The notes beneath the pieces were generated by a model. The model was not told the origin of the DNA, made no database searches, and saw only the letters and a list, made by a program, of their open reading frames with translations. From Halomicroarcula saliterrae (lineage in GTDB: Archaea; Halobacteriota; Halobacteria; Halobacteriales; Haloarculaceae), in contig NZ_JAMQON010000003.1 in the NCBI RefSeq assembly GCF_031624395.1, positions 248,001 through 312,000 on the forward strand: 64,000 nucleotides of DNA, written 5' to 3'. Below, piece after piece: positions 29,800 through 56,508 of this stretch (the stretch's first letter is position 1; the number at the start of each line of letters is the position of its first letter). The translations under genes and the position numbers were made by a program.

Positions 29800-29874
29800 G
29801 GGCACGTAGCTCAGCCCGGATAGAGCGTCGGACTTCTAATCCGACGGTCGTGGGTTCGAATCCCACCGTGCCCG
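29800..29874 (+). tRNA. tRNA-Arg (anticodon TCT)
   Basis: A 75-nt cloverleaf. The acceptor stem is GGGCACG/CGTGCCC with discriminator G, and the D stem is GCTC/GAGC. The anticodon stem is TCGGA/TCCGA with loop CTTCTAA, giving anticodon TCT for AGA/AGG arginine codons. The T arm is GTGGG-TTCGAAT-CCCAC. There is no intron and no encoded CCA. Its 3' end is copied 118 bp downstream, as expected of an integration site. Confidence 0.95.
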
Positions 29875-29969: not shown

Positions 29970-29992
29970 GGGTGAGAATCCCACCGTGCCCG
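29970..29992 (+). repeat. att-like copy of the tRNA-Arg 3' end
   Basis: GAATCCCACCGTGCCCG (29976-29992) repeats the last 17 nt of the tRNA gene (29858-29874) exactly. The match extends to 23 nt with two mismatches (29970-29992 against 29852-29874). Haloarchaeal tyrosine integrases use tRNA 3' ends as attB, so this is a probable attachment-site scar. No integrase gene is present. Confidence 0.6.
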
Positions 29993-30180
29993 CTTCTGCG
30001 ACGAACACGAGGCGCGACCGATGGGAACGTCCCGGTCGTGAGGAGCGAAGCGATGAGCGATACGTGGAGATTGGCGTTGATCTAGAGGCCATCGTCGTCC
30101 ACAGTGGCAAGATCGAATTGTTGAATATGATTAATCAACTTCGGTTTGTTCCATATTTTAATCAGCGCACACAGCTTGGA

Positions 30181-30199
30181 AGGATTTATATACATTCGG
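30181..30199 (+). promoter_or_regulatory. Strong TATA element facing two hairpins
   Basis: AGGATTTATATACATTCGG is a good archaeal TATA box. Transcription about 27 nt downstream (near 30215) would start just before the first hairpin. No ORF follows on this strand, so any product would be a non-coding RNA antisense or convergent to the gene at 30292-31374. Confidence 0.4.
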
Positions 30200-30219
30200 T
30201 GGTGATGAATAAACACAAC

Positions 30220-30267
30220 GCGTCCTTTCCCAGGACGCGCCTTATTTCGGTTCCCTCCCAGGAACCG
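30220..30267. other. Two tandem stem-loops with related loops
   Basis: Hairpin 1 is GCGTCCT-TTCCC-AGGACGC (30220-30238). Hairpin 2 is CGGTTCC-CTCCCA-GGAACCG (30248-30267). Stems are perfect 7-bp pairs of different sequence, but both loops expose YTCCC, and both match TCCCAGGA at the loop-stem junction. On the minus strand they lie just after the orphan gene (a terminator role is possible). On the plus strand they follow a TATA box (a small RNA is possible). Confidence 0.5.
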
Positions 30268-30291
30268 TTCTACAACGTACTAGATGCATCT

Positions 30292-31374
30292 TTAATCGGA
30301 GAAAGCCGATAGCTCATCCTGAAACAGGCGGATTGCTTCACTCCTATCAAGAACGCTTACCGATTTCCTATCATTCAACGAGGCATAATCTTCTAATTGA
30401 TCCTTATTATCTCCAAGGCAAATAAGAAAGTCTGACGAATCCATGAAATCTCGGTCGTGGTTCTCATTAAAGAACTTCACACATCCATCTGACTTCTGTG
30501 CAAATTTACAAGCATGCTCAAATATATCTAGAGACTTGACCTTCTTTGTAGAGAGTTCATCTCCAGTCTCAATATAAACCGTTGGACTGGGATAATGGAG
30601 GATACTTCTGATACTATCAGTTGTGTGTGGCACCATATGCCTCAAATCAATGCCGTGGTCGATAGACTTAGAATCAACGTAAGCAGAGTCCTCTGGTGTT
30701 ATGTCTTTTAGGAACTTGTATATCTCTTCTTCATCCCATTCCTCTACTTGCTGCTTTACCATATCCATGGTTAGATCTGCAAGTGAGAGAAGAGGATACG
30801 TTTTATCTCCTTGAGGAATGACTCTTATTTTATTAGACAATTCGCCCACATCTAGCCACGATTTGGATATTTGCCCGCCAAAGTCGTCTGTTAAGACATT
30901 TTTATGGATTGGCCAAGTATCATATGGTAGGTGCTCCGGTCGTGTCTTCTTTTTTCTAAGGTATTCCCAGATGGCAATGATATTATAATATTTTTCTAAA
31001 ATATTATTCATGAACTCCTGTGATTCCATTCTCTTCCTATCGTCTTCGTTATCTCTAAATAAAGTGACCCACTGTGGTGGCAAAGACGTTTCTACAAACT
31101 GAACTTCACGAATTGTTTCGATTGTCAATAGTTCCTGTACGATCTCCTTTCGCGCATCCTCCCTTTCCCAATCTTTCACCCATCTAGTAATATCTGAATC
31201 TTTTATTATCGGGTGCTCTGTTTCAATTCCGTACTCGCCACACTTTTTTGTTATAATCTCAAAGTATCTGCTATCGAATTCTTCAATATCATCAACAGCT
31301 ACTGCAACAGCGGCCAGGCTAACCCAGTTTGGCTGCTGTTCATGAAATCTATACTTTGTTGCATCTGAAGCCAC
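30292..31374 (-). CDS. A+T-rich orphan protein, possible DUF3800/RNase H-like
   Basis: This 360-aa protein belongs to no family I recognise with confidence. Base composition and codon use (many AAA, ATA and TTT codons, Lys and Ile rich) differ sharply from all neighbours, a sign of recent transfer. The order of elements loosely resembles DUF3800: NWVSLAAVAVAVDD early (about 15-28) and LLSLADLTMDMVKQQVEEW (about 195-213). The first acidic strand of that family is not evident. The start is GTG 31374, supported by a TATA-like AAATATTATA (minus strand) at 31414-31425. The frame stays open 28 codons further upstream without an ATG, so N-terminal loss is possible. Its location beside tRNA-Arg suggests an accessory or defence role. 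Confidence 0.6.
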   Translation of the reverse strand: MASDATKYRFHEQQPNWVSLAAVAVAVDDIEEFDSRYFEIITKKCGEYGIETEHPIIKDSDITRWVKDWEREDARKEIVQELLTIETIREVQFVETSLPPQWVTLFRDNEDDRKRMESQEFMNNILEKYYNIIAIWEYLRKKKTRPEHLPYDTWPIHKNVLTDDFGGQISKSWLDVGELSNKIRVIPQGDKTYPLLSLADLTMDMVKQQVEEWDEEEIYKFLKDITPEDSAYVDSKSIDHGIDLRHMVPHTTDSIRSILHYPSPTVYIETGDELSTKKVKSLDIFEHACKFAQKSDGCVKFFNENHDRDFMDSSDFLICLGDNKDQLEDYASLNDRKSVSVLDRSEAIRLFQDELSAFSD

Positions 31375-31766
31375 CCATCCATCTCCGTCGATAACTTTGC
31401 AAAAGTTTGAACCAGTATAATATTTAGGCCAGTTAGAATTACCAAAACTGCACCGGAATCACAATCCTCAGTCAGAAAACCAACTAAATCTGGGTCGGCC
31501 AGTACCTTACACCGGTCTTGTACTTGTGACCCGGCAGTGTAAACGCCGTTGAGGATAGCGGTCTGCTTCGCTATCGTTAAGCGATTTCACGCAACTGTTC
31601 AAGAATCCGATTATCAAGCCGTCGTTGCCAGCGGGCCGTCTTTCGTATCGTCATAGTAGATGGCTACACGTCGTTCGCTTCAGCTCCGCTCGTCGCGGGG
31701 GCTGACAGCCCACTATGCAGAAGCCTTTCTTGAGCTTGATTCTGCATGCCGACAGGACCCGTGCCC
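31375..31766. other. Decayed accessory sequence between orphan gene and HemAT
   Basis: No intact gene is present. The region holds the orphan-gene promoter, a frameshifted repressor relic (31465-31654) and a perfect 8-bp inverted repeat, ATGCAGAA (31715-31722) with TTCTGCAT (31740-31747), close to the HemAT stop. Composition changes from A+T-rich to normal near 31600. Confidence 0.4.
31465..31654 (-). pseudogene. Frameshifted PhiH1-repressor-like winged-helix relic
   Basis: From ATG 31654 the frame reads MTIRKTARWQRRLDNRILEQ then LREIA and stops at 31577. In the shifted frame the sequence resumes as TIAKQTAILNGVYTAGSQVQ and DRCKVLADPDLVGFL. Joined, these match the haloarchaeal PhiH1-repressor pattern: a W-x-D-x-RILE-like first helix, then the RCxxLA-x-x-LL recognition-helix region. 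A +1 frameshift near 31580 would restore it. Such proteins repress halovirus lysogeny genes, so this is probably debris of a virus or plasmid. Confidence 0.5.
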
Positions 31767-33314
31767 TCACTCGGTCAGCCGGTCGACGGTCTGGGACACT
31801 TCCTCTACCGTGGCGGCCTGTTCCTCGTTGGCGGCGGCGATCTGCTCGGCTTCGGCGGCGACGGTGTCCGCCTGGGCGACGAGTTCGTCGAGCATACTGG
31901 CGACCTCTTCGGTGCTTGCGGCCTGTTCGTCGGTGGCGTCGGAGACCTCCCGGATGCCCTGTGCGGTCTCCTGGACGGCCTCGGTGATGTCGTCGAGCAG
32001 CTCCATCGCTTCGGAGACGCGCTCGATGCCGGACTCGATCCGTTCGGTCGTCTCGTCGAGGCTCTCGACGGTGTCCTCGGTGTCGGCCTCGATGGCGTGG
32101 ACGAGCGTCTCGATCTCCTGAGCGCGCTCCTGTGAGTCGCCGGCCAGCGACTTCACCTCGTCGGCGACGACTGCGAATCCGGACCCGGCCTCGCCCGCGC
32201 GGGCGGCCTCGATGGAGGCGTTCAGCGCGAGGATGTTGGTCTGTTCGGCGATGTCGTTGATGACCTCGACGACGGCGTCGATCTCGCCGACGCGGTCCTG
32301 CAGTTCGTCCACGTCGGTCGAGACCTCGTCGACGGCCTCGCCCACGTCGTCCATGACGCCCATCGCGTCGTCGGCGGCCGACTGGCCGTCTTCGGCGAGC
32401 CGGCGGGCGCGCTGGCTGTTGCTTTCGACCTCGTTCGCGCTGGCGGCGACCTCCTCGACAGTGGCGCTCATGTTGGAGACCTCGCCGGCGATGGACTGTA
32501 TCCGCTCGGACTGCTCGGTCGTCAGCTCGGAGATCTGCTGTGAGGACTGGGCCACGCCGTCAGCGGAGTCACGCAGCTCCGAAATCGGCGTTTCGAGGTC
32601 GTCTTCGACCTCGGCGGCGAGCCGTTCGCGGCGCTCGATTTCGGCCTGTAGCTTCTGGCTGTAGGAGTGGATGTACGTGTCCGCGACCACCTGCATGTCG
32701 AGGTTGATGATGCGCAGGACCGACGTGATGTCCTCGCGGAGGTCGGTGATCTCCTCGGTGACGATGTCGTCGACGGTCTCCTCGCTCGCCGCGGCGACAC
32801 CGCCGTCGGTCGCCGTCCCGTCGAGCGCCGCTTCGAGGCGCTCCGTGATGCGCTCGCTCGCCCGCTCGGTCAGCAACGGGAGGATGAGGTCGTAGTAGAC
32901 GCCGTACTGGCCGATGTACTGCTTCATCGGCATTTCGAGGATATCGTGGAGCTTGCCGATACGGGCGCGGTTCTGGAAGTACTCCTCGCCGTACTCGCCC
33001 TCGGCGAGCGTGACGAAGTACGCTCGCTGGGTGTCTTTCAGGGCGTCGACGGCTTTCGGCGACCGGCTGATGACCGCGACCGTCTCGTCGTACTGCGTGA
33101 GGTTCTCGTAGAACGCGTCGGCGACGGCGTCGGCGTTCTCCTCGAACAGCGGCTGGAGCGCTTCGAGCCGCTGTCTGTCGGCCGCGTCGAAGTCGAGGTA
33201 GTCTTTCCGCCACTCTATCTCGCTTCGGTCCAGCCCTATCTCCCGGACGAGCGCGTCGACGTCGACCTGGTCGTTCAACCCTCCTTGCCCGAATATCGCC
33301 GCGTAATCGCTCAT
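31767..33314 (-). CDS. hemAT: HemAT-type soluble aerotaxis transducer
   Basis: This 515-aa globin-coupled oxygen sensor signals to CheA/CheW. The N-terminal sensor globin (about 1-185) includes a helix LHDILEMPMKQYIGQYGVYYDL that supplies the proximal-side His region. There are no membrane helices. The C-terminal signalling domain (about 230-515) is a long coiled coil with the invariant chemoreceptor tip (QTNILALNASIEAARAGEAG then FAVVADEVKSLA). A TATA element, GATATAAATAAT (minus strand, 33331-33345), lies about 25 nt upstream of the ATG, a leaderless arrangement. It borders the accessory patch but is of normal composition. Confidence 0.9.
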   Translation of the reverse strand: MSDYAAIFGQGGLNDQVDVDALVREIGLDRSEIEWRKDYLDFDAADRQRLEALQPLFEENADAVADAFYENLTQYDETVAVISRSPKAVDALKDTQRAYFVTLAEGEYGEEYFQNRARIGKLHDILEMPMKQYIGQYGVYYDLILPLLTERASERITERLEAALDGTATDGGVAAASEETVDDIVTEEITDLREDITSVLRIINLDMQVVADTYIHSYSQKLQAEIERRERLAAEVEDDLETPISELRDSADGVAQSSQQISELTTEQSERIQSIAGEVSNMSATVEEVAASANEVESNSQRARRLAEDGQSAADDAMGVMDDVGEAVDEVSTDVDELQDRVGEIDAVVEVINDIAEQTNILALNASIEAARAGEAGSGFAVVADEVKSLAGDSQERAQEIETLVHAIEADTEDTVESLDETTERIESGIERVSEAMELLDDITEAVQETAQGIREVSDATDEQAASTEEVASMLDELVAQADTVAAEAEQIAAANEEQAATVEEVSQTVDRLTE

Positions 33315-43612: not shown

Positions 43613-46600
43613 TTACCGCTGGCCGCGGGCCCGGAGCGCGACGAGCGCGACCGCCAGCAGCGCCGCGAGGACGCCCATTCCGGGGCCGCTCCCGTCGGTC
43701 GTCGCGGTCGGGGTCCTCGGCGTCGGGCTGTCCGTCCCAACCCGTTCGGTCGGTGTCGAAGTTTCGACCGCTGTCTCGGGGTCCGTGGGTTGGACTATGT
43801 CTCCGCCGACAGTGAACACCGAGAGACCCGGCGAGATGGCCTCGAAGGCGTAGCTCTCGTTGCTCTCGGCGACGAGCGCGGTCGGCAGCCGCGTCCAGTT
43901 CGTCCCGGTCTGGCGGTACAGCGCAACCGTCGCCGGGTCGACGCCTGCCGCGTCCACTCGGAACGCGACCGTCACGTTCTCGACATCGCTGTCGGCGATA
44001 GCGTGGCCGAGAGTCAGCGTGCCGAGGGGCGCTGTGCCGGTCTGTGCGGTGAAGTTCTCGGCGCTCGCGTCGCTCGCGGTGACGTTGAGGCTGAAGTTCC
44101 CGTCGCGGCTGACGTTCAGCCGGAGGCCGGTGACGCTCGCGTCGCTCCGCTCGTCGAGCGCGACATCGATTGGCGTGTCCGCCCGCGCGTTTACCACGGC
44201 GACTGTCCAGCTCGCCTCGGTGCCGTTCACCGACTCGACGGTGACGGTCGTCACACCCTCGTCGGTCGCTGGACCGCCCGCGGTGTCGCCCGAGGAGCCG
44301 CCGGAACTACCGCCCGAGGAGCCGCCGGAGTCACCGGAGTCGTCCGAACTAGACGAGTCATCGCTGCCGGCGGAGTCGTCTGCGTCCTCGGAATCGTCGC
44401 TACCGGCGGAGTCGTCTGCGTCCTCGGAATCGTCGCTACCGGCGGAGTCGTCTGCGTCCTCGGAATCGTCGCTACCGGCGGAGTCGTCTGCGTCCTCGGA
44501 ATCGTCGCTACCGGCGGAGTCGTCGCGAATCTCCACGCGCAAGGTGTCGGCCGCCGCGTTTCCGCTCGTGTCGGTGACGGTCAGCGTCGCGGTGTAGGTC
44601 CCGGACGTCCCGTAGGCGTAGGAGACGTTCTCACCGGTCGCGTTCGCCCCGTCGCCGAAGGTCCACTCGTAGGAACTGATCTCGACGCCGTCCGACGAGT
44701 CGCTCGCACTGAACGAGAGCGTGTCGCCTTCGTCCCCGTCGCTGGGGCCGCTCGCGACCGCGTTCGGGGCGGTCCCGTCGACAACCGAGACGGTTCGGCT
44801 CGTACTCGTGTTCTCGCTCGCGACGGTCACGAGGCCGCTGCCGACGTCTCCGTTCCCGGTCCGCCACGTGAGCGAGACACTGCTCGACGCGCCCGGCGCG
44901 AGTGTCACGTCGACCGAATCCCGCTCGATGGTGTCGGTGAGCGTCACCGCCTGCGTCGCCGCGATGCCACCGGTGTTGGTGACAGTCGCGGTGACGGTCA
45001 GGTTGTCGCCGGCGGTCACGGGCGTGTTCGTGGCCGCGCCGGTCACGTCGAAGAACGCCGGCGCGAGGAACTCGACGGTCGGCTCGTCGGCGAGCGTCAC
45101 GCCGTCGGCGACGACAGAGACGGTGACCGTCTCGGCCACATCGTTCGTGACGGCAAACTCGTAGACACCGCCGCTGGTCTCGCTGACGCCGGTCGCCGCG
45201 GTGGCGTCCCCGCCGACCGAGAGCCCGAAGTCGTCCGCGACGAGACCGGTGACCGGACTGCCGGTGGTGTCGACGACGGTCGCCGTCACCTTTGCGGGGT
45301 CGCTACCGTCGGCGACGTGTGGCGAGGTCGCGCTGACGGTCGAGGCGTCCGCGTCGACCGACGGCTCCCGGACGGTCACCGACTCGGTGGTCGTCGTGTT
45401 CGCGCTCGCGACGGTCACGAGGCCGGTCCCGACATCGCCGGTGTCGGTCGCCCAGACGAGCGTGACCAGCCGTGACTCGTCGGGGGTGAGTGTCAGCGTG
45501 ACGTTGTCCGCCTCGCCGCCGCTATCGGTCAGCGTCACCGTTTGCGTGCCCGCGGTGTCACCTGCGTTGTGCACGTTGGCGACGACGGTGAGCGCCTCGC
45601 CCGCGTCGACGGGTGTGTTCGTGTCCGCGATGGCCACCTCGAAGTACGGCCGCCCCGACTCGACGAACTCGATTTCGGGCTGGTCGGCGAGCGTCACGCC
45701 GTCGGCCGTGACGGTGACAGTCACCGACTCGGTGACGGCGTCCGTCACGGTGACTGTGTAGACACCCGTGTTGACCTCGCTGGTGACGCCGGCGACGGCG
45801 GACCCGCCGACAGCGACGGCGAACGCGTTCGCCGTGAGTCCCGTGACCGTGTCGCCGCCGGAGTCGACGAGGACGACGGCCACCGTCGAAGCGTCGCTGC
45901 CGTCGGCGACCCGTGGGGATTCGACCGCGACTGACGAGGCTGCGGCGTCGATAGTCGCCACGCCGCTGGTCGTCACCCGAGCCGACCTGAGTTCTGGCGG
46001 GCCGGACTCGATAGGCGCCCACGTCTGCTCGAAGTCGAGCGCCGCCATCGCGTAGCGGGTCGAGAGGCCGCGGAACTGCGCCGCTTCGAGCGCCGTGACG
46101 CCGCTTCCGGTGCTCGCGTCGCCACAGCGACCCGCGTAACAGTACGACGCCGTTATCGTCCCGTTGTTCAGGCCGGCGACCCCGCTGACGCTGGTCTCGC
46201 CGGTGGCGTTCCCGGTCGCCCACGCCGTCGTGACGTCGCCGGGGTTCAGCCCGACGAGACCGCCGACGTAGTCGGTGCCCGAGACCTCGCCGCCGGCCGA
46301 GGCGTTCGCGACGCTCTGCTCGTTCCAGCCGACGAGGCCGCCGACTGTTCGGGCCCCGTAGACGTCGCCCGTCGCGGTCGAGCGCGCAACGGTGAACTGT
46401 CTGTTGCTGGTCCCGACGACGGTGTTGCCGACGAGGCCGCCGACGTCGGTGTCGCCCCGAACCGTCCCGGTGGCCGTCGACTCCGTGACGTTCCCTCGGA
46501 CCAGCACGCCGACGAGGCCGCCGACGCCGTCGGTCCCGTAGACGTCGCCGCTCGCGGACGCGTTCCGCACGTCGCCACCGAACCTGGACCCGGCAAGCCC

Positions 46601-49045
46601 GCCGACCGAGTCGGTTCCAGTGACGGTTCCACTGGCGGACGCGTCGGTTAGCTCGCCGCCACCGTCGCCGACCAGGCCGCCGACGTCTCTCCTCCCGTCG
46701 ACATCACCGCTAGCCCACGAGTCGCGCACCGGGTCTCTGGCGTTGCCGGCCAGTCCGCCGACACCGTCGGTCCCGTTGACGTCGCCGGTCGCCCAGGATT
46801 CGGACACCGGGCCGATACTGACCCCGACGAGGCCGCCGACGTCGCTGGTGCCGTCGACGTCGCCACTCGCCCACGAGGTCGTTATCTCGCCGCCGGGATT
46901 GAACTGGCCGACCAAACCGCCGACGGTTCCGCCGCCCTCGACGACCGCACTCGACGACGAGTCGGTGAGTGTCGCACCGTTCAGCCTGCCGACGGCGCCA
47001 CCGACGCTGGTGCCACCTGTCAGCCGCCCGCTGGCGGAGACGTTCGAGAGCCCGCCGTTGTCCGCCCGCCCGACCAGCGCACCGACGGTTCCGTCGCCAG
47101 CTATCGAGACGTTCGCCAGCGTGACGTTCCGGATATCACTCCCCAGGGCGAAGCCGAATAGCCCCACGTCGTCCTCGTCCGGCCGGTCGATGGTTAGGTT
47201 CGAGATACTGTGACCCTGGCCGTCGAAGCTTCCGGTGAACTTGGTCGAAAAGCTCCCGACCGGCTCGAAGCCCTTGTCACTGTTCCACTCAGACGTGTTC
47301 GTGGCGTCGATGTCGTTCCCGAGGAGGTAGTTCGCACCGAGACTCTCGTTTATCGCCTGCAACTGCGTCAGGTTCGTGACGACGTAGGGATAGGCGTCGC
47401 TCCCGGTGCCGACCATCCCGGCGGGACCGTTGGCTCCCAGGTCGACCTGGACTGTCGCCGTCGTCTCCCGGTCCAGCGTCCGCACCGTCACGGAATCGCC
47501 ATCGACATCGCTCTCTCGGGTCTGCCAGTCGAGGGCGACAGTGGTCGACTCGCCGGCGTCGAGCACCAGCGGGACGAACGTTTGGTCGTCGTCAACGAGC
47601 CACACGGGCTGTGTGTCGGCTCTCGTCCCCGCGTTGGTGACGGTCGCGGTGACGGTCGCGGTGTCACCGACCGTCACCGAGTTCGGTGCGTCGGTGACGG
47701 CCACGTCGAAGGTCGGCTCCCACGCGAGCTTTGGGTAGCGGTTCGTCGAGACCCACTCGGCAGGGAAGACGAGCCCGCTCATGTTGCTCGTCGCGGCGTC
47801 ACCCGTCATCTGTGCGGTCGTCAGTGCCACGGTGGTAACGCCCGCCACGTCGCTGGCGCCGACGCCGGCGGCCTGGTCGGTCGTGTCGCCGTTCCAGTAG
47901 ACGTCGGCCGTGGCGTCCGCACCCGTGGTGACGTTCCCGATGGCGCCGCCGACGGCGGACTGCCCGTCGACGTGCCCGACCGAGTACACGTCGACGACTG
48001 TACTGCCGTGCATGCCGACGAGCCCACCGACGGCGTCCGTCCCGGTGACGTTCCCGCGGGCCGCGGAGCGAGTGATTTCGAGTGTCCCGAGGACCCTGCC
48101 GACGAGGCCGCCGACGGCGCTCGTCCCCGAGACGTGCCCCGTCGCGAACGAACCGGTTACGCTGCCTTGCCCGGCCAGGCCGCCGACGTAGGTATCGCCG
48201 GTGACTGCCCCAGTCGCAAACGAATCAGAGGCGGAGTCGACCCGGCCGGCCAACCCGCCGACGTAGTCCACGCCGGTGACCGCCCCAGTCGCCCACGAGT
48301 CGGAGACGGCGCCGCCTCGTCCGACGAGACCCCCGGTGAAGCTGGTGCCGGTAACGTCGCCGCGAGCCCACGAGTCCGAGACCGTCCCCGTGCTGTACCC
48401 GACTAGCCCACCCACTCGCTCCGACCCGTCCACCGTCGCCGTCGTCGTCGAGTTGGTCACTGCCCCGTCGAGTGAACCCGCTACCCCACCGACGTAACTA
48501 AACTCGGACGTACTGCTCACGGAGCCGCTCACCGAGACGTTCGACAGTCCTCCCGGCGCGGAGCTGGTCTCTATCTCGCCGACGACACCCCCGACGCGCT
48601 GTTGACCCGTTATCGAGACGTTCGAGAGTGTGACGTCCCGGATATCGGCACTCTCGGCGTAGCCGAACAGACCGATCCAGTTCCGCCCGGGTCGGTCGAT
48701 GGTCAGGTTCGTGATGGTGTGGCCCCGCCCGTCGAAACTGCCGGTGAACCTGGTCGAAAAGCTCCCGACCGGCTCGAAGCCCGCCCCGCCGTTCCGGGTC
48801 GCGCTCGCGTCGATATCCGCGACGAGCGCGTAGTTCGCCCCGGGCTCCTGTTGCATCGCCTGCAACTGCGTGAGATTCGCGACCTGGTAGGGGTCCTCGG
48901 CGGTTCCGTCGCCGTACATTCCCGCCGGACCGTTGCCCGCCGCGGCGGCGGCCGTGCCGACCAGTCCGGGCGCGAGTGCGACCACCGACCCCAGAAGGAG
49001 CACTGACAGCACGACGGCCCGAAGGCGGTCTTCTGTCCCGGTCAT
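43613..49045 (-). CDS. Giant surface protein: two GLUG modules, Big-like, PKD, PGF-pre-PGF, PGF-CTERM
   Basis: This protein of about 1810 aa starts at ATG 49045 just before a signal peptide nearly identical to that of the 1043-aa protein. GLUG beta-helix module 1 (about 40-440) and a CARDB linker (about 440-555) lead to GLUG module 2 (about 560-1000), which restarts NGPAGMVGTGSDAYPYVVTN, an internal duplication. Two Big_1/CARDB pairs (about 1005-1430), a PKD domain (about 1440-1525), an acidic 12-residue repeat DSAGSDDSEDAD and a PGF-pre-PGF domain (about 1610-1760) follow. The tail GPGMGVLAALLAVALVALRA then RGQR is a PGF-CTERM variant, expected to be cut and lipid-anchored by archaeosortase A. 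Likely an adhesive or S-layer-attached protein. Confidence 0.9.
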   Translation of the reverse strand: MTGTEDRLRAVVLSVLLLGSVVALAPGLVGTAAAAAGNGPAGMYGDGTAEDPYQVANLTQLQAMQQEPGANYALVADIDASATRNGGAGFEPVGSFSTRFTGSFDGRGHTITNLTIDRPGRNWIGLFGYAESADIRDVTLSNVSITGQQRVGGVVGEIETSSAPGGLSNVSVSGSVSSTSEFSYVGGVAGSLDGAVTNSTTTATVDGSERVGGLVGYSTGTVSDSWARGDVTGTSFTGGLVGRGGAVSDSWATGAVTGVDYVGGLAGRVDSASDSFATGAVTGDTYVGGLAGQGSVTGSFATGHVSGTSAVGGLVGRVLGTLEITRSAARGNVTGTDAVGGLVGMHGSTVVDVYSVGHVDGQSAVGGAIGNVTTGADATADVYWNGDTTDQAAGVGASDVAGVTTVALTTAQMTGDAATSNMSGLVFPAEWVSTNRYPKLAWEPTFDVAVTDAPNSVTVGDTATVTATVTNAGTRADTQPVWLVDDDQTFVPLVLDAGESTTVALDWQTRESDVDGDSVTVRTLDRETTATVQVDLGANGPAGMVGTGSDAYPYVVTNLTQLQAINESLGANYLLGNDIDATNTSEWNSDKGFEPVGSFSTKFTGSFDGQGHSISNLTIDRPDEDDVGLFGFALGSDIRNVTLANVSIAGDGTVGALVGRADNGGLSNVSASGRLTGGTSVGGAVGRLNGATLTDSSSSAVVEGGGTVGGLVGQFNPGGEITTSWASGDVDGTSDVGGLVGVSIGPVSESWATGDVNGTDGVGGLAGNARDPVRDSWASGDVDGRRDVGGLVGDGGGELTDASASGTVTGTDSVGGLAGSRFGGDVRNASASGDVYGTDGVGGLVGVLVRGNVTESTATGTVRGDTDVGGLVGNTVVGTSNRQFTVARSTATGDVYGARTVGGLVGWNEQSVANASAGGEVSGTDYVGGLVGLNPGDVTTAWATGNATGETSVSGVAGLNNGTITASYCYAGRCGDASTGSGVTALEAAQFRGLSTRYAMAALDFEQTWAPIESGPPELRSARVTTSGVATIDAAASSVAVESPRVADGSDASTVAVVLVDSGGDTVTGLTANAFAVAVGGSAVAGVTSEVNTGVYTVTVTDAVTESVTVTVTADGVTLADQPEIEFVESGRPYFEVAIADTNTPVDAGEALTVVANVHNAGDTAGTQTVTLTDSGGEADNVTLTLTPDESRLVTLVWATDTGDVGTGLVTVASANTTTTESVTVREPSVDADASTVSATSPHVADGSDPAKVTATVVDTTGSPVTGLVADDFGLSVGGDATAATGVSETSGGVYEFAVTNDVAETVTVSVVADGVTLADEPTVEFLAPAFFDVTGAATNTPVTAGDNLTVTATVTNTGGIAATQAVTLTDTIERDSVDVTLAPGASSSVSLTWRTGNGDVGSGLVTVASENTSTSRTVSVVDGTAPNAVASGPSDGDEGDTLSFSASDSSDGVEISSYEWTFGDGANATGENVSYAYGTSGTYTATLTVTDTSGNAAADTLRVEIRDDSAGSDDSEDADDSAGSDDSEDADDSAGSDDSEDADDSAGSDDSEDADDSAGSDDSSSSDDSGDSGGSSGGSSGGSSGDTAGGPATDEGVTTVTVESVNGTEASWTVAVVNARADTPIDVALDERSDASVTGLRLNVSRDGNFSLNVTASDASAENFTAQTGTAPLGTLTLGHAIADSDVENVTVAFRVDAAGVDPATVALYRQTGTNWTRLPTALVAESNESYAFEAISPGLSVFTVGGDIVQPTDPETAVETSTPTERVGTDSPTPRTPTATTDGSGPGMGVLAALLAVALVALRARGQR
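44367..44525 (-). repeat. 36-bp tandem repeat in coding sequence
   Basis: Four exact 36-bp units (44367-44402, 44403-44438, 44439-44474, 44475-44510) and a partial fifth encode DSAGSDDSEDAD on the minus strand. The units are identical at synonymous sites except near the edges. This shows recent expansion, and in-frame length change would alter the stalk before the PGF-pre-PGF domain. Confidence 0.85.
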
Positions 49046-49184
49046 CGCGACCCGCCGCCGCGGATACACCCCGCCCGTTCGCTTCCGGTGGACCGACCTA
49101 TGGGTTCGACGCTCGCCTTCCCGACTCCCCTCGACCGACCACAACTACCTGGAGTGCTCATGCCCGAGGGTCGCTAATTTCGGC

Positions 49185-50071: not shown

Positions 50072-53000
50072 TCACCGCTCGCGGCGCCGTCGGAGACCGA
50101 CGGCGAGACTGACCGCAAGCAGCGCCGCGACGACGCCCATACCCGGCCCGCTGGCGCCGGTCGCCGTTTCCGTGGGCGTGACGGTCGCCGGTTCGGGCGT
50201 CGGGCCGGTCGCCGACCGTGCCCTGACGCTCACGGTCCCGACTGACTGCCCGTCGACGGCCAGCGCGTAGGTGCCCGCCGTCTCGAACGTCGACGAGAGC
50301 GTCACGGTTCGGTTCGTCCCGGCGGCCACGTCGACGGAGTCGGTGGCGACGGCGCTGCCGTCGGCGGTGAGTTCCAGCGGATAGGTCCGCTCGACCGTGC
50401 CACGGTTGGTGAGCGTCACGTCGACAGCCGCCGGCTGGCCGGTGTCGACCGTCGCGGTCCGGCGGGTCGCCTCGGTCACCGTTACCATCGACGCGTTCGT
50501 CCCGACGGTAAAGACCGAGAGGCCGGGTGCGGTCGCCCGGAAGACGTAGTGCGTGTCGGTCTCGCCGACGACGGTCGTCGGCAGACGGTTCCAGCGCGTG
50601 GTCTCGTCGCGGTACAGCGACACTGACGACGGTCCGATGCGGTTCTCGCGGAGGTAGGACTTTCGCAGCCGGAAGGTGAAGGCCACCTCGCCGATGTCGG
50701 CGTCGTCGATGGAGTGTGTGACCGTCACCCGACCCATCGGTGTCGACCCGGTCGAGGCGGCGAACTCGCGGTCCCTGTCGGACGGCGCCGAGACGCCGCT
50801 TTCGGGCTCTTCCGCGGCCGGCCCACCGGCTCGAATCTCGCTCGTCGAGACGGACAACCCGAAGTCGCCGTCGCGCTCGACCGTCAGCTCGATACTCGGC
50901 ACGTCGACGTTGCGCTGGTCACCGCCGGTATCGGAGTCGCCACCGGCCAGCGGAATCTGCACGGGTTCGCCCCGCTTCGCGTCCGAAACGGAGACCTCGG
51001 CGGTAGCGCTGTCGTCCGACTCGTCCACGGTGACCGACGTGCCGGAGCTACTGCCACCACCGCCGCCGCCGTCACGGACCGGGAGTACCGTGATATTGAC
51101 GACGGCTCTGTCGGTGTTGCCGTCGGTATCCCGCAGCTCGTAGACGAAGGCGTCGTCGCCGTTGTAGTTCCGGTCGGGGCGGTACTCGAAGGAGCCGTTG
51201 GCAGCCAGCGTGAGCCGCCCGTCCGACGTGTTGGTCACGACCGAGACAGTGAGGTCGCCGTCGTCGGCGTCGGTGTCGTTCGCGACGACCCCGAGGTCGG
51301 CGTCGACGGCGAGCGTGTTGTCCTCCAGAACGGTGTACGCGTCGTCGACCGCGTCGGGGACCGTGTTGGTAACCGACAGGTCGGTCACCCCGGCGACGCG
51401 GTTCCCGCCGGCGTCCTCGGGGACCTTGCGTCCGGGTGCGTAGCGCAGAGTGACGTCGTCTTCGGCCGCGATACTGTCGGCGAGTGTCAGGCTGAGATTC
51501 CGCCCGTCGACCGCGACGTCGGTCACGGCGACGGCCCGGCCGCCCGCCGTGACGGCGAAGTCCCCGCCGTCCGGTACGTCCCCCGAGTCGGTCGAGAGCG
51601 TCTCGTCGGTGCGAAGCGTGAGTGTTCGCTGGCCGGTCCGTGCGCCCGTCACTGCCGGTGGGCGCGTGTCGACGGTGATGTTGAACCGTTCCACGCCGCT
51701 CGTGTCGGTCCCTTCGTTCGCGGTGCCGCCGTCGTCTCGCACCCGCACGGCGACGGTGGCGGTCCCCTCGACGCCGTCGTCGACGGCGTAGGTCAGCGTG
51801 CCGTTGTCGTCGCCGTCGGTGTCTGTAACGGCGACACTGTCGAGGATGCCCGCGGGGTCGCGCTCGACCGAGACGACGAACGCCCGGACGCCTTGGCCGG
51901 CCTCGTCGGACCCGCCGCCGGGCGAGAAGCCGGTGGCGAAGTCGGGGACCGTCCGCTCGCTCGTGTCGTTGGTCACGGTCCGGTTCGCACCGAGGTCGAT
52001 GCTCGGTGCGTCGTTGACGGCCTCGACGGTGAGTGTGACCGTCGCCTGCGCCGTCGCCCCGTTGCCGTCGGCTATCTCGTAGGTGAACGTCTCCTCGCCG
52101 GTGCGGTTCGCTGCGGGGACGTACTCGACGGAGCCGTTCGCGGCGAGCGTCAGCGCGCCGTTCGCCGGGCTGGAGACCAGCGCCACCGTCAGCGCGTCGC
52201 CGTCGACGTCGCCGTCACCGTCGAGCACGCCGGGTGCGGCCACCGACAGCGCGGTGTCTTCGGCTGTCGTGTAGCTGTCCGCGTCCGCAGTCGGCGCGTC
52301 GTTGGTGTTGGTCACGTCGATGCCGAACGGGCCGACCGTGTCGGTCGCGCCGCCGCCGTCTTCGACGGTTATCTCGATGCCGTCGGCCGTGCCCACGTCA
52401 TCGTTGGTCGGCGTCCCCGATAGCTCGCCGGTCGCGGTGTCGAAGGTTGCCCACGAGGGCTGGTTCACTATCGTGAACGTCGTCGTATCGCCCGCGTCCG
52501 CGTCACTGACAGCCGGTGTGTAGCTGTAGACCGAATCCTCCGCGACCGTCGCGCTGGGTGTGTTGTCGATGGACGGCGGGTCGTTGGTGTTGGTCACGTC
52601 GATGCCGAACGGCCCGAGCGTGGCCGTCTCGCCGGCGGTGTCCGTCGCGGTAATCTCGATACCGCCGTACGCACCCACGTCGTCGTTGGTCGGCGTCCCG
52701 GCTATCTCACCGGTGGCCGTGTCGAACGTGGCCCACGGGGGCCTGTTTGTAATGGTGAACGTCACCGCGTCGCCCGCGTCGACGTCGACTGCCGTCGGCG
52801 TGAACGAGTAGACGCTATCCTCGGGGGCGTCGGGTGCCGTCCCGCCTATCGTCGGTGGGTCGTTAGTGTTGGCCACGTCGATGCCGAACGGGCCGACCGT
52901 GTCGGTCGCGCCGTCGCCGTCCTCGACGGTTATCCCGATGCCGTCGTAGCTACCCACGTCGTCGTTGGTCGGCGTCCCCGACAGCTCGCCGGTCGCGGTG

Positions 53001-56000
53001 TCGAAAGTTGCCCACGAGGGCTGGTTCACTATCGAGAACGCCGTCGTGTCGCCTGCGTCCACGTCGGTGACGGCCGGTGTGTAGCTGTAGGGCGAATCTT
53101 CGGTGACCGTCGCGTCGGGCGCGTTGTCGATAGACGGCGGGTCGTTGACCGGCGCGACGGTCAGCGTGAACGATTCGGTCCCCGAGAGCCCGCCGTCGTC
53201 GGCTTCGAGGGTAATCGTGGCCGTCCCCGTGGCGTTCGGCGCGAGCGTGACGTCGAGCGTCCGGTCGGTGCCGGTGCCACTGACCGCCAGATTGGCGTCC
53301 GGCACCAGCGACTGGTCGCCCGAACTCGCGCCGACGGTCAGCGACCCCGGCGCCGTCTCGACGTCGTCGACTTGGAAACTGACGGGGGCGACGTCGCTGT
53401 CCTCGTCGACGGTCAGGTCGCTCACCGCGGTTATCGTCGGCCGGTCGTCGACCGGGTCCACCGTCAGGCGGAACTCTTCCCGGGCGGTCAGCGAGCCGTC
53501 GCTGACCTCGACGGTGACGAGGGTGCTCCCGGACTGGTCCGCCGCCGGGACGATATCGAGCGTGCGGTCGGTCCCGCTCCCGCCGAAGGCGTGTGACTCG
53601 ACGAGCGACGGTGTGTCGGCGCTAAAGGAGAGCGTGAGGCTCCCCGCGGCCGTCTCGGCGTCACCGACGGTGAACGCGACGCCGCTCAACGGCTGGTCTT
53701 CGTCGGTCGCCTGGTCGGCGATGGCACCGATAGTCGGCGCGTCGGCCACGGGCTGGACGTCCAGCGAGACGGTCGCACTGTCGGTCTCGCTGTTTCCGTC
53801 GCCGGTCAGCCCGGGGTCCGTGCCGGTGTTGCCCTCGTCGGAGACAGTCGCGGTCACGGTGTCGGTCCCGAAGTAGTCGGTGTCGCTCCGGTAGGAGAGC
53901 GTCCCGAGCGCGGCGTTCACGTCCGACTTCGGCCCGCTGACGGTGAGCGAACTCGCGCCGTTGCTCCCGCTGACGACGGCGAGCCCCGTCGTCGAGCCGA
54001 CGGTGAGCGTGCCGTGCTGGGCGGTGAGCGTCAGCCTCATGAGCCCGCCACCGTCGTCGGGATCTGCCACCTGTATCTCGTTCGCGCCGGTCAGGTCGAA
54101 CGCGACGTCCTCGTCGGGCTGGAGCGTCCCGCCCGGGGCCGTTATCGAGGGGGCGTCGTTGCCGGGCTGGACGGTCACGGTCGCCGTCGCACTCGCAGTC
54201 GCCCCGGCGTCGTCGGTCGCCGTGACGGTCACCGCGCGGTCGGTGGCGTCGGGCGCGTCGTCGTCGTTCTGAAAGCGCACCGCCTCGACGGCGGCTTCGA
54301 GGTCAGCCGTGCTGGCCGTGTTGCGCGTGACGGTAATCTCGTTCGTGCTGGCCGAGAACCCGAGGTCGGCGGCGAGGCCGCTCGTGTCGACTGCCAGCCC
54401 TTCACCCGCGTCGCCCTGTGGGTTGTCGAGTGTCACCGTGACCGACTCGACGGTCCCGTCGCTGTCGGCCAGATCGACTGGCCCGGTGACGGCCACGCCG
54501 TCGCCGCTCGCGGTCCCCTGGTCGTCGTTCTCGCTGAACGTGACCGACGAAGCGGTACCGTCCGCGCCCGTATCGAGGTCGGCCGAGGGCGAGACGTTGC
54601 TCTGGTCGACCACGATGTTGTCGATAGCGACCTGGTCGCTCACGCCGGTGGTAAACCGAACCTCGTCGACACGCCGGAACTCGGAGTCGTCCCCGTCGGG
54701 GTCTCTGGTCTGATAGCCGCTGCTCGCGGCCATCGTGTAGGTCTGACTCGCCACCCGCGTCCCGTCACGGTAGCCGTAGACCGTCACGTCCTGTCCGGAA
54801 TCACCGTAGTTGTCGATATCGAGGGAGTCCAGCGCGAACGGCTCGTCGCTCTCGAAGCGGGTGCCCGTCGTCGCCGGGTCCCGCGTGGCCTGTTCTAACT
54901 GGAGCTCGTTCGACGCCACCAGGCTATTCTCCGCGGCATCTCCGAACTGGTAGCCGTAGAACAGCAGTTCCCGCACGTTTCGCGCGTCGACCGAATCACC
55001 GTTTCCCAGTTCCGGGCCGAGGCTGGTGAAATCGAGCGTCGTACTCGTCGAAATCGGTTCGAGTGCCGGGTCGAAGATGACGGACTGGGACTCGCTGGTC
55101 TGGAGCGCGCCGTCCGGGTCGCCGTCGTCGAAGCTGAGCGTGAGGCCGTACTCGACGACAACCGGGTCGCCGATGTTCTCGTAGGTGATGGCCTGTAACA
55201 CGTCGTCGACCAGTGCCGGCGTGGCCGCCGTCTCGGCGGCGGTGAAATCGATAGTCAGCGTGCCACCGCTCTGCGTGTAACTGGCGAAGGCGCTCCCGCC
55301 AGTTGTCAACTCCGACCCGGAGGTGGCGAAGGTTCCGGCGCTCGTATCGAACCCGTAGCTGTCGTCGGCGCTGGCACCGCCCTCACGGACGACGGTGAGC
55401 GTACTGCCCGCGTAATCGCCGGCCGCGTCGAGCTCTGTGTCGGCGACCGTCGCGTCGCTGTCGACGACCACCGGTGTCCCGCTCGCCTCGTCGTAAGTGA
55501 CCGTCGCATCGAGGTTCGAGAACGACGGCTGGGTGTTCGAGGAGACCGCCTGGTCGACGACGAAGTCGTCGACGGTCACACAGCTATTGGCATCGAAGCT
55601 GGATGTGTCGCTGTACCCCTCGAACCGGACTTCGTCGACGGATGCGAAGCCGATGACTCGCGTAGTCACCGGCTCGGTCGAGCTTATGGTGTAGCTCTGT
55701 GAGTCGACCTGTGTCCCGTCCTCGTAGCCCGCAACAGTGAACGATATCGGCGTTCCGCAGAACACCTCGGTGGTGAACGAGGAGAACTGGAAACTGTCCC
55801 CGTTCGGGTCGCTAATCGTCCCATCCGGAAGGGTCTCCCGGAGATTCAGCCCGATATCCGGCTGTTCAAGCGTATCCCACTGCCAGTTCTCGAACTCCAG
55901 TGTCGTCGAACTCCCGTCGGCTTCGAGCGACCCGGTACAGGTCGTCCCGCCGCTGGACGTGCGGGTCAACAGTTCCTGCGAGACGACACAGGGGTCCGAG

Positions 56001-56179
56001 TTCGGATATTTACTGTCGAAGGAAAAAGTTTCCTGGGTGGTGACTTGCATCGTCCCGCCCGAGACGACGGACTCGCTCGTCCCGACGGTCGCCGACCCGC
56101 TCGCCGGCACGACTGTGACACCTGAGAGGGCCACACAGACGACGACACCGATAAGTAGCAGCATCCGCCGATTCGCCAT
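50072..56179 (-). CDS. Giant cadherin-like surface protein with PGF-pre-PGF and PGF-CTERM
   Basis: This protein of about 2035 aa has a Sec signal peptide (about 1-28). An N-terminal unique beta region (about 30-560) contains two sugar-binding-like DUF642/PEP-type segments (GYEDGTQVDSQSYTI; YGYRDGTRVASQTYT). A long array of cadherin-like/VCBS domains follows (about 560-1560). It includes three near-identical dystroglycan-type units with the PSWATFDTATGELSGTPTND signature, and Big-like and tandem-95 units (AEDTALSVAAPGVLDGDG). Next are a PGF-pre-PGF domain, a CARDB-like domain and a tail GPGMGVVAALLAVSLAVGLR then RRRER, a PGF-CTERM variant. Acidic, Ca-binding-like DxD loops are frequent. Probable role: cell-cell or cell-surface adhesion. 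ATG 56179 is chosen because it directly precedes the signal peptide; 56191 and 56200 are alternatives. Confidence 0.88.
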   Translation of the reverse strand: MANRRMLLLIGVVVCVALSGVTVVPASGSATVGTSESVVSGGTMQVTTQETFSFDSKYPNSDPCVVSQELLTRTSSGGTTCTGSLEADGSSTTLEFENWQWDTLEQPDIGLNLRETLPDGTISDPNGDSFQFSSFTTEVFCGTPISFTVAGYEDGTQVDSQSYTISSTEPVTTRVIGFASVDEVRFEGYSDTSSFDANSCVTVDDFVVDQAVSSNTQPSFSNLDATVTYDEASGTPVVVDSDATVADTELDAAGDYAGSTLTVVREGGASADDSYGFDTSAGTFATSGSELTTGGSAFASYTQSGGTLTIDFTAAETAATPALVDDVLQAITYENIGDPVVVEYGLTLSFDDGDPDGALQTSESQSVIFDPALEPISTSTTLDFTSLGPELGNGDSVDARNVRELLFYGYQFGDAAENSLVASNELQLEQATRDPATTGTRFESDEPFALDSLDIDNYGDSGQDVTVYGYRDGTRVASQTYTMAASSGYQTRDPDGDDSEFRRVDEVRFTTGVSDQVAIDNIVVDQSNVSPSADLDTGADGTASSVTFSENDDQGTASGDGVAVTGPVDLADSDGTVESVTVTLDNPQGDAGEGLAVDTSGLAADLGFSASTNEITVTRNTASTADLEAAVEAVRFQNDDDAPDATDRAVTVTATDDAGATASATATVTVQPGNDAPSITAPGGTLQPDEDVAFDLTGANEIQVADPDDGGGLMRLTLTAQHGTLTVGSTTGLAVVSGSNGASSLTVSGPKSDVNAALGTLSYRSDTDYFGTDTVTATVSDEGNTGTDPGLTGDGNSETDSATVSLDVQPVADAPTIGAIADQATDEDQPLSGVAFTVGDAETAAGSLTLSFSADTPSLVESHAFGGSGTDRTLDIVPAADQSGSTLVTVEVSDGSLTAREEFRLTVDPVDDRPTITAVSDLTVDEDSDVAPVSFQVDDVETAPGSLTVGASSGDQSLVPDANLAVSGTGTDRTLDVTLAPNATGTATITLEADDGGLSGTESFTLTVAPVNDPPSIDNAPDATVTEDSPYSYTPAVTDVDAGDTTAFSIVNQPSWATFDTATGELSGTPTNDDVGSYDGIGITVEDGDGATDTVGPFGIDVANTNDPPTIGGTAPDAPEDSVYSFTPTAVDVDAGDAVTFTITNRPPWATFDTATGEIAGTPTNDDVGAYGGIEITATDTAGETATLGPFGIDVTNTNDPPSIDNTPSATVAEDSVYSYTPAVSDADAGDTTTFTIVNQPSWATFDTATGELSGTPTNDDVGTADGIEITVEDGGGATDTVGPFGIDVTNTNDAPTADADSYTTAEDTALSVAAPGVLDGDGDVDGDALTVALVSSPANGALTLAANGSVEYVPAANRTGEETFTYEIADGNGATAQATVTLTVEAVNDAPSIDLGANRTVTNDTSERTVPDFATGFSPGGGSDEAGQGVRAFVVSVERDPAGILDSVAVTDTDGDDNGTLTYAVDDGVEGTATVAVRVRDDGGTANEGTDTSGVERFNITVDTRPPAVTGARTGQRTLTLRTDETLSTDSGDVPDGGDFAVTAGGRAVAVTDVAVDGRNLSLTLADSIAAEDDVTLRYAPGRKVPEDAGGNRVAGVTDLSVTNTVPDAVDDAYTVLEDNTLAVDADLGVVANDTDADDGDLTVSVVTNTSDGRLTLAANGSFEYRPDRNYNGDDAFVYELRDTDGNTDRAVVNITVLPVRDGGGGGGSSSGTSVTVDESDDSATAEVSVSDAKRGEPVQIPLAGGDSDTGGDQRNVDVPSIELTVERDGDFGLSVSTSEIRAGGPAAEEPESGVSAPSDRDREFAASTGSTPMGRVTVTHSIDDADIGEVAFTFRLRKSYLRENRIGPSSVSLYRDETTRWNRLPTTVVGETDTHYVFRATAPGLSVFTVGTNASMVTVTEATRRTATVDTGQPAAVDVTLTNRGTVERTYPLELTADGSAVATDSVDVAAGTNRTVTLSSTFETAGTYALAVDGQSVGTVSVRARSATGPTPEPATVTPTETATGASGPGMGVVAALLAVSLAVGLRRRRER

Positions 56180-56508
56180 CGCCCCGTTCATCGGCCACAC
56201 GTGCCTGCCGGGCCCGTGGCAGACCGTCTGTCGGCCGCGGGCCGCACTCGTACACCGTCCTCCGGGGAGGGGTCTGCACCGCCAACGACTGTCACCGCAC
56301 CGGGCCCCTTCGCGCGCGTGTCAGAGGCTCTAAGGCCAGATTGCATGGCATCTCCTTCGGACAAATCGGTATATAGCCACCGATGAAACACTGTTTCACG
56401 CGTGAAACACGGTTACGTCGCTCCCGGCCAATCGAGGTTATAAAACCCGGCGAACTGCGGCAGGCGGGCCAGGGGGACACGCAACCTTCAGCGATCATGC
56501 AGTCGAGC
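56180..56508. other. Long leader and promoter of the 2035-aa gene
   Basis: No gene is seen in this 329-bp region. A transcript from the TATA element at 56370 would have a leader of about 160 nt before ATG 56179, unusually long for this genome, where most genes here look leaderless. 56410-56508 is the gap before the truncated hydrolase. Confidence 0.4.
56370..56409 (-). promoter_or_regulatory. Promoter and palindromic operator of the 2035-aa surface protein
   Basis: TGTTTCACGCGTGAAACA (56392-56409) is a perfect 18-bp palindrome. On the minus strand it is followed after 16 nt by TATATA (56370-56375), with CGGTGGC before it. A third half-site (TGTTTCA, minus strand) lies in the 16-nt spacer. 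The same architecture is found before the other two giant genes. Confidence 0.72.

Follow-up and report, generated by a model that had tools for sequence, protein, structure and literature searches.

What is the role of two closely spaced hairpins that follow a TATA-like box and lie just beyond the 3' end of a protein gene on the opposite strand? An initial annotation had left the choice between a small RNA partner of the gene, an antisense regulator and a terminator. In the following, the window means the whole stretch of DNA that was analysed, 64 kb in length.

The hairpin pair in the window

The features around the hairpins are listed in Table 1. The pair had been described as two perfect 7-bp stems with YTCCC loops. 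The stem length is right for hairpin B and one pair too short for hairpin A; the loop TTCCC is correct for hairpin A, and that of hairpin B is corrected to six nucleotides. The motif said to be common to both hairpins is the octamer TCCCAGGA, which is read at 30228-30235 and again at 30256-30263 and spans each time from the loop into the 3' arm. The TATA box noted ahead of the hairpins is found as TTTATATA and lies 34 nt from hairpin A, and hairpin B does end 24 nt short of the minus-strand gene, whose stop codon is at 30292. In archaea a distance of about 27 nt separates the centre of the TATA box from the transcription start. The start of the candidate RNA was set accordingly, and both RNA ends, 30215 and 30270, are to be taken as estimates.

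Table 1. Positions of the hairpins and neighbouring features in the window
Feature	Position	Strand	Description	Basis
BRE/TATA-like promoter	30178-30192	+	purine-rich GGAAGGA, then TTTATATA at 30185-30192	
Candidate structured RNA, ~55 nt	30215-30270	+		promoter position and extent of conserved structure
Hairpin A	30219-30239	+	perfect 8-bp stem CGCGTCCT/AGGACGCG, 5-nt loop TTCCC	covariation in relatives
Linker	30240-30247	+	pyrimidine-rich, CCTTATTT	sequence; linker of similar length in relatives
Hairpin B	30248-30267	+	perfect 7-bp stem CGGTTCC/GGAACCG, 6-nt loop CTCCCA	covariation in relatives
Partner protein gene, 360 aa	30292-31374	-	GTG start at 31374	
Imperfect copy of tRNA-Arg(TCT) 3' end	29970-29992	+	91%, 23 nt; source gene 29800-29874	

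It should be noted that a twin hairpin was not taken as evidence in its own right, since perfect hairpins (stem of at least 7 bp, loop of 3-8) number 100 in the window, some of them closely spaced. The pair exceeds chance because the arrangement recurs at homologous loci, with covariation and with a promoter at fixed distance.

Homologous loci

The homologous loci were gathered by protein search alone, and yet hairpins are found in their 3' flanks. When the element itself served as the query of a DNA search, no credible match turned up elsewhere, and only the protein route yielded loci. Relatives of the partner protein were found in 7 of 146 genomes of the window's family, in 17 of 391 genomes of the class (again 17 of 391 with the Halonotius protein as query), in 2 of 28, 6 of 170 and 3 of 125 genomes of three other families, and in 8 of 246 genomes of the phylum; these genome sets overlap, and the counts include the window's own genome. 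Hence the partner gene, called an orphan by the initial annotation, is judged by sequence comparison to be one with relatives scattered among haloarchaea, and with more remote ones elsewhere in the phylum. The nearest relatives are proteins of Halonotius pteroides (69%) and of a plasmid of Halobacterium sp. GSL-19 (71%), and in the protein tree L043 is closest to the window protein (75%). Close copies in the tree sit in different families, as expected for transfer.

In total 24 loci were gathered (23 and L058), and the 22 with usable 3' flanks were kept, the window's own copy included. L046 was dropped for a 3' flank identical to that of L035. L037, the same locus as L023 and L052, was dropped because it has only 64 nt of flank up to the contig end and an in-gene stop codon; no hairpin was seen there. 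L027 and L073 are N-terminal fragments with no 3' flank, and duplicate loci of the same genome were counted once. L094, L095, L097, L098 and L099 were found later and stand outside the 22.

Hairpin architecture follows the protein

Hairpins recur at the same convergent position, 3' of the homologous genes, at the 22 loci. Throughout the window's clade of the protein tree (13 tree rows, support 99/98) their order after the stop codon is the same, and the twin-hairpin architecture coincides with this one clade, the architecture labels having been set by hand. In the sequences compared, the RNA architecture follows the protein tree.

The nearest relatives hold both hairpins with swapped pairs, T-A to C-G in stem A and C-G to T-A in stem B. 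In seven further members (L015, L016, L017, L018, L022, L024 and L033) the loop of hairpin A, read on the plus-equivalent strand, is the GNRA tetraloop GAGA, and that of hairpin B is CGCC, CGCA or CACA. The proposal that the same loop is displayed on different stems therefore holds for L035, L043 and L058, which keep YTCCC-like pyrimidine loops, and fails in the wider clade, where the loops change. As to whether homologous loci retain the loop or the stem, the outcome is mixed: in the wider twin clade the loops vary and parts of the stems are kept, namely GUC/GAC in A and GGU/ACC or GU/AU in B. Three hairpins are present in L021, and less regular ones in L025 and L026.

In the sister clade there is a single hairpin, with a tip that is mostly CCCCACAGGGG or a near form of it (L020, L029, L030, L031, L032, L048); L019/L028 have a longer single hairpin. 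One hairpin with GGTCCCCACGGGGG is found in L094 and L095, two rows of the tree that belong to a different family within the phylum, and in L099 of that same family, and the most distant relatives, L097 and L098, have a hairpin loop TGGTCT. An extra perfect hairpin of 6-7 bp stands between the TATA-like box and hairpin A in L022 and L024, and the estimated transcription start would cut through it.

Covariation and searches with RNA models

The initial annotation had argued for selection on structure, to be checked by searching other genomes for covarying stem pairs beside homologues of the gene. Such covariation was found, and the twin stems do covary in relatives. In alignment A5, made of seven relatives, 99.0% of 103 cells are paired, both sides change at 5 of 15 pairs, and every one-sided change gives G.U or U.G. 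When the partners are slid out of register, pairing drops to 41-59%. The covariation score of A5 was 0.390 against 0.233 for shuffled alignments, with none of 500 shuffles as high. Alignment A6, the window with its three nearest relatives, has 97.1% of 68 cells paired and changes on both sides at 4 of 17 pairs, and 9 of 500 shuffles scored as high. These covariation figures are not probabilities, because the rows are related.

The two subgroups were joined by hand because the covariance models R1 and R2 each barely find the other subgroup. Combined in this way, both-side changes are seen at 9 of 18 stem positions, a count for which the subgroups were joined through hand-written pairs, which leans towards the structure. 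R2 matches the window at 30216-30274 (+) with 76 bits, the window being one of its four training sequences; the other 12 matches of R2 in 146 genomes of the family had E 0.002-0.09 and were taken as chance. In the same number of family genomes R1 gave four matches, all of them training loci. Neither model found a free-standing copy. A search of Rfam at E up to 10 with 18 and then 8 further loci gave only tRNAs and matches taken as chance.

A promoter-like signal tied to the hairpins

Anchored on the foot of the hairpin, the mean TATA score of the 22 loci peaks at -35 (3.59), the feet having been chosen by eye with some of the TATA boxes already seen. None of 1000 circular shifts was as high for all 22 loci, for a group of 14 or for a group of 8; since the loci are related, these shifts and the shuffles above overstate independence. 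With the same 22 flanks anchored on the stop codon, the maximum was 1.66. On the strand opposite the gene, a BRE/TATA-like signal stands about 28-37 nt before the first hairpin and is tied to the hairpin rather than to the stop codon. In 18 of the 22 loci the top-scoring TATA-like octamer falls between -38 and -29; in L016, L033, L026 and L048 it is found elsewhere, and that of L058 is weak (score 3.0). The composition before the hairpin foot is A-rich from -37 to -35 and then T-rich from -33 to -28, an order resembling that of the haloarchaeal BRE (CGAAA) and TATA (TTWT) elements described in PMC4983044. Three of the extra loci, which belong to another family and are outside the TATA statistic, have CCGAAAAGCTTTTATAT or CCGAAAAGCTTTTTATA before the single hairpin. 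Two of the three have their top-scoring octamer at -30, and in L094 a nearer AT-rich stretch scores best.

The TATA-hairpin distance kept across 22 loci argues for the plus-strand promoter that had been placed just before the hairpins, and together with the covarying stems it speaks for the link to the neighbouring gene that had been suspected.

Further, we looked at which strand the structure favours. A strand-neutral helix search gave 16 G.U against 5 A.C among the non-Watson-Crick pairs of the plus-equivalent strand. Pairs favouring the gene strand were seen in L020, in L025, in a distal helix of L048 and, by eye, in L019/L028 and in the most distant loci, L097 and L098. For the first 110 nt past the stop codon, read on the plus-equivalent strand, the folding z was -2.0 or lower in 17 of 22 loci, and these flanks averaged z -2.83 on the plus-equivalent strand and -2.26 on that of the gene (Wilcoxon p 0.04). 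For the element of the window it is the gene strand that folds more stably, -28.0 against -23.8 kcal/mol. A tiny reading frame was also considered and rejected: frames over both hairpins (ATG, GTG or TTG starts) occur in only 4 of 11 twin loci, are mutually different, and none is conserved.

The partner protein

The AlphaFold2 model of the partner protein, built from 17 sequences, has a mean pLDDT of 85.3, and its residues 1-214 are predicted to form an RNase H fold. The best structural match is RNase HII, with Z 9.1 and an rmsd of 3.7 over 151 aligned residues in the range 1-217, and the model thereby supports an RNase H fold for the partner. D4, D163 and D200 are invariant in the 17 aligned rows. 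Residues 262-359 of the model form a Rossmann-like domain that matches BRCT and methylglyoxal synthase at Z about 6, and these matches may reflect only a common arrangement. Absence of a family from the listing of the fold comparison does not exclude it.

No family of Pfam, NCBIfam or PADLOC matches the protein, a sequence search of solved structures gave none for its family, and a structure search among viral models gave nothing at E 0.001. Homologues were absent from phage records and from viral contigs, the latter searched with peptide patterns only. The codon aligned with the ATG of the relatives reads ATC in the window (31390-31392), and the first usual start is the GTG six codons further on; this copy of the gene may use a rare start or be weakened.

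Genomic context of the homologous loci

Defence and mobility genes are found around several of the loci. In Halonotius pteroides (L035, 3107-3895) a TumE toxin and an HVO_A0114 protein lie directly upstream of the partner gene. L039 is neighboured by an integrase and by HSDR_N and MmeI-type domains, L040 by an integrase and HsdM, and L038 by TnpB. The 54.9-kb Halobacterium plasmid NZ_CP070376.1 (L058/L078) carries genes for capsid, portal, Cdc6, ParA and type I-B cas proteins, and its module lies about 4 kb from cas6. The Pfam scan behind the observations on L035, L038, L039 and L040 covered 20 neighbouring proteins at 7 loci, several of these proteins with no match. The context as a whole is to be read as a handful of loci with no control set.

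A proposed two-part RNA-protein module and its alternatives

On balance it seems rather probable that the hairpins belong to a structured RNA some 55 nt long, which is read from a promoter of its own towards the convergent RNase-H-fold gene, and that the two form a mobile RNA-protein module in which the protein most likely binds the RNA. The twin hairpins would form the core of a plus-strand gene for a small non-coding RNA, the RNA starting at its own BRE/TATA promoter a few bases ahead of hairpin A and running towards the 3' end of the protein gene. RNA and protein would move horizontally as one two-part module, and the protein would bind the RNA as a fixed partner, either as a cofactor or as a guard restraining a nuclease. 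The role of the module could be defence-like or toxin-antitoxin-like. The sequence comparisons support a conserved structure, the promoter position, the strand bias and co-segregation with the protein clade; from there we infer transcription of the RNA, RNA binding by the protein, nuclease activity and a defence or antitoxin role. That RNA and protein work together is probable because they are conserved side by side in many archaea, often amid defence and mobile genes. Further, we speculate, with more doubt than conviction, that the pair is an archaeal immune or addiction module of a kind not yet described. A dedicated twin-hairpin RNA, made from the convergent promoter, would hold or aim an RNase-H-fold nuclease, and the sensing or destruction of this RNA upon infection would release or redirect the nuclease. 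Transfer would have taken such a module through haloarchaea and on to further lineages of the phylum, and one copy is carried by a provirus-like plasmid.

Other explanations have to be weighed against the RNA-protein module. At all the loci examined, the RNA would be made from the strand opposite the gene's 3' flank, and it could be a cis-acting antisense regulator only, which pairs with the 3' end of the mRNA and tunes its stability with no binding of the protein. An mRNA that extends beyond the stop codon would include the complementary hairpins, so that loop-loop contact is possible, and antisense RNAs are described as common in haloarchaea (PMC6523106). We nevertheless find this unlikely, as pairing needs no preserved loop or stem core, yet the clade loops (GAGA; CTCCCM; CNCM) and the cores are fixed and the other pairs covary.

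A bidirectional transcription terminator or a stabiliser of the mRNA 3' end, the first of which the initial annotation had also named, appears quite improbable. The position just past the stop codon and the stable fold on both strands would suit it, and so would the T-rich TTGTGTTTATTC after the distal hairpin on the gene strand. However, this stretch is confined to the window; by eye it is absent from L035, L043, L058 and L021, and the relatives have no conserved T-run with which to make an intrinsic terminator. Nor would one expect a TATA-like box at fixed distance, wobbles pointing to the other strand, or stem cores and loops specific to each clade. Finally, the twin palindromes might act as DNA, as a binding or cleavage site for the RNase-H-fold protein, in the manner of transposase or integrase ends, or as the border of a mobile element. 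This fold is common to DDE transposases and integrases (e.g. 3oym, Z 5.8), and integrases and a tRNA-end repeat are found nearby, but palindromes should show neither a bias of G.T over A.C (16 to 5) nor a fixed promoter spacing. As they also occur on one side of the gene only, with no second copy of the element above chance level in the window's genome, we regard this explanation as very improbable.

Comparison with known systems

The nearest analogue of the RNA-protein module would be the DUF3800 proteins (PF12686) and their RNAs, the resemblance being one of kind. The DUF3800 RNA motifs were reportedly first described by Weinberg et al. in 2017. In both cases a small structured RNA adjoins the gene of an RNase-H-fold protein, and the order of motifs is similar, with a D in strand 1 (LSxAD here, IQ/LQxAD in DUF3800). 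The present protein differs in its additional C-terminal Rossmann/BRCT-like domain, and the RNA in being convergent and having its own promoter. PMC10910872 describes the DUF3800 domain as being of RNase H fold, with its catalytic part rearranged, and as associated with putative ncRNAs; PMC12669027 presents it as a nuclease of that fold found at some CRISPR loci, and the Rfam names DUF3800-I and DUF3800-IX appear in PMC11701678. The RNase H fold is present in the model of the partner protein, and it is common to many other families as well.

At E up to 10, the PF12686 profile matched 0 of 17 homologues; the profile does find true haloarchaeal members, one of them in the window's own genome (L057, contig C1 about 840163-840783), beside which no Rfam RNA was found. 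A comparison by hhalign with DUF3800, represented by three haloarchaeal sequences only, was weak (probability 1.7%, E 0.03) and placed LSLAD on LQVAD. The predicted DUF3800 structure had a pLDDT of 30.8, and solved structures searched by sequence gave nothing credible for it. None of the Rfam DUF3800 RNAs was found, at E up to 10, in 18 loci or in 8 more, 4 of these with true DUF3800 genes.

Type III toxin-antitoxin systems (ToxIN, TenpIN, CptIN) likewise combine a nuclease-like protein with a small structured RNA in mobile and defence contexts; in them the RNA binds a toxic endoribonuclease and neutralises it. Their antitoxin RNA consists of repeats in tandem that precede the toxin gene in the same operon and are parted from it by a terminator (PMC5086642). 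This layout was not seen at the loci examined: here a single copy of A and B lies downstream and convergent, with its own TATA-like box, and the protein has a predicted RNase H fold. Type I systems and cis-antisense sRNAs also place a small RNA opposite the 3' part of a gene. Unlike the small hydrophobic peptide of type I, the partner has about 360 aa and a globular two-domain prediction, and the RNA preserves a structure of its own along with motifs particular to each clade.

In haloarchaea, CreTA are RNA toxin-antitoxin pairs with a small RNA, an own promoter and hairpins. They are linked to a CRISPR-cas locus, and the toxin RNA has a start codon and minor codons. A CreTA-like RNA was considered and rejected; no cas gene or CRISPR locus was identified around the window element among the neighbours that were scanned, and the element has no conserved tiny reading frame.

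Among the titles and abstract openings searched, with subscription journals mostly outside their scope, such an RNA-protein pair was not described. Nuclease genes paired with their own small RNA are little known in archaea, and the known pairs form a short list (DUF3800 RNAs, type III toxin-antitoxins). If the module is real, a protein family with no Pfam name and an RNA family with no Rfam model join this list, as an archaeal case. The covarying RNA, the fixed promoter and the invariant aspartates make the pair directly testable. It would also mean that a hairpin pair passing for a terminator can be an RNA gene of the opposite strand, told by its promoter spacing and wobble bias.

Other features of the window

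The GC content is low at 30001-32000, with 0.43 and 0.51 against mostly 0.60-0.73. The copy of the tRNA-Arg(TCT) end is 118 nt downstream of the tRNA gene and adjoins this low-GC stretch; standing beside the low-GC module, it is possibly an integration scar. The frame at 31767-33314 (-) has protoglobin and MCP signalling domains, and its product is presumably a HemAT-like oxygen transducer. Further along the window there are very long open frames at 43613-49144 and 50072-56200 (-), of 1843 and 2042 aa.
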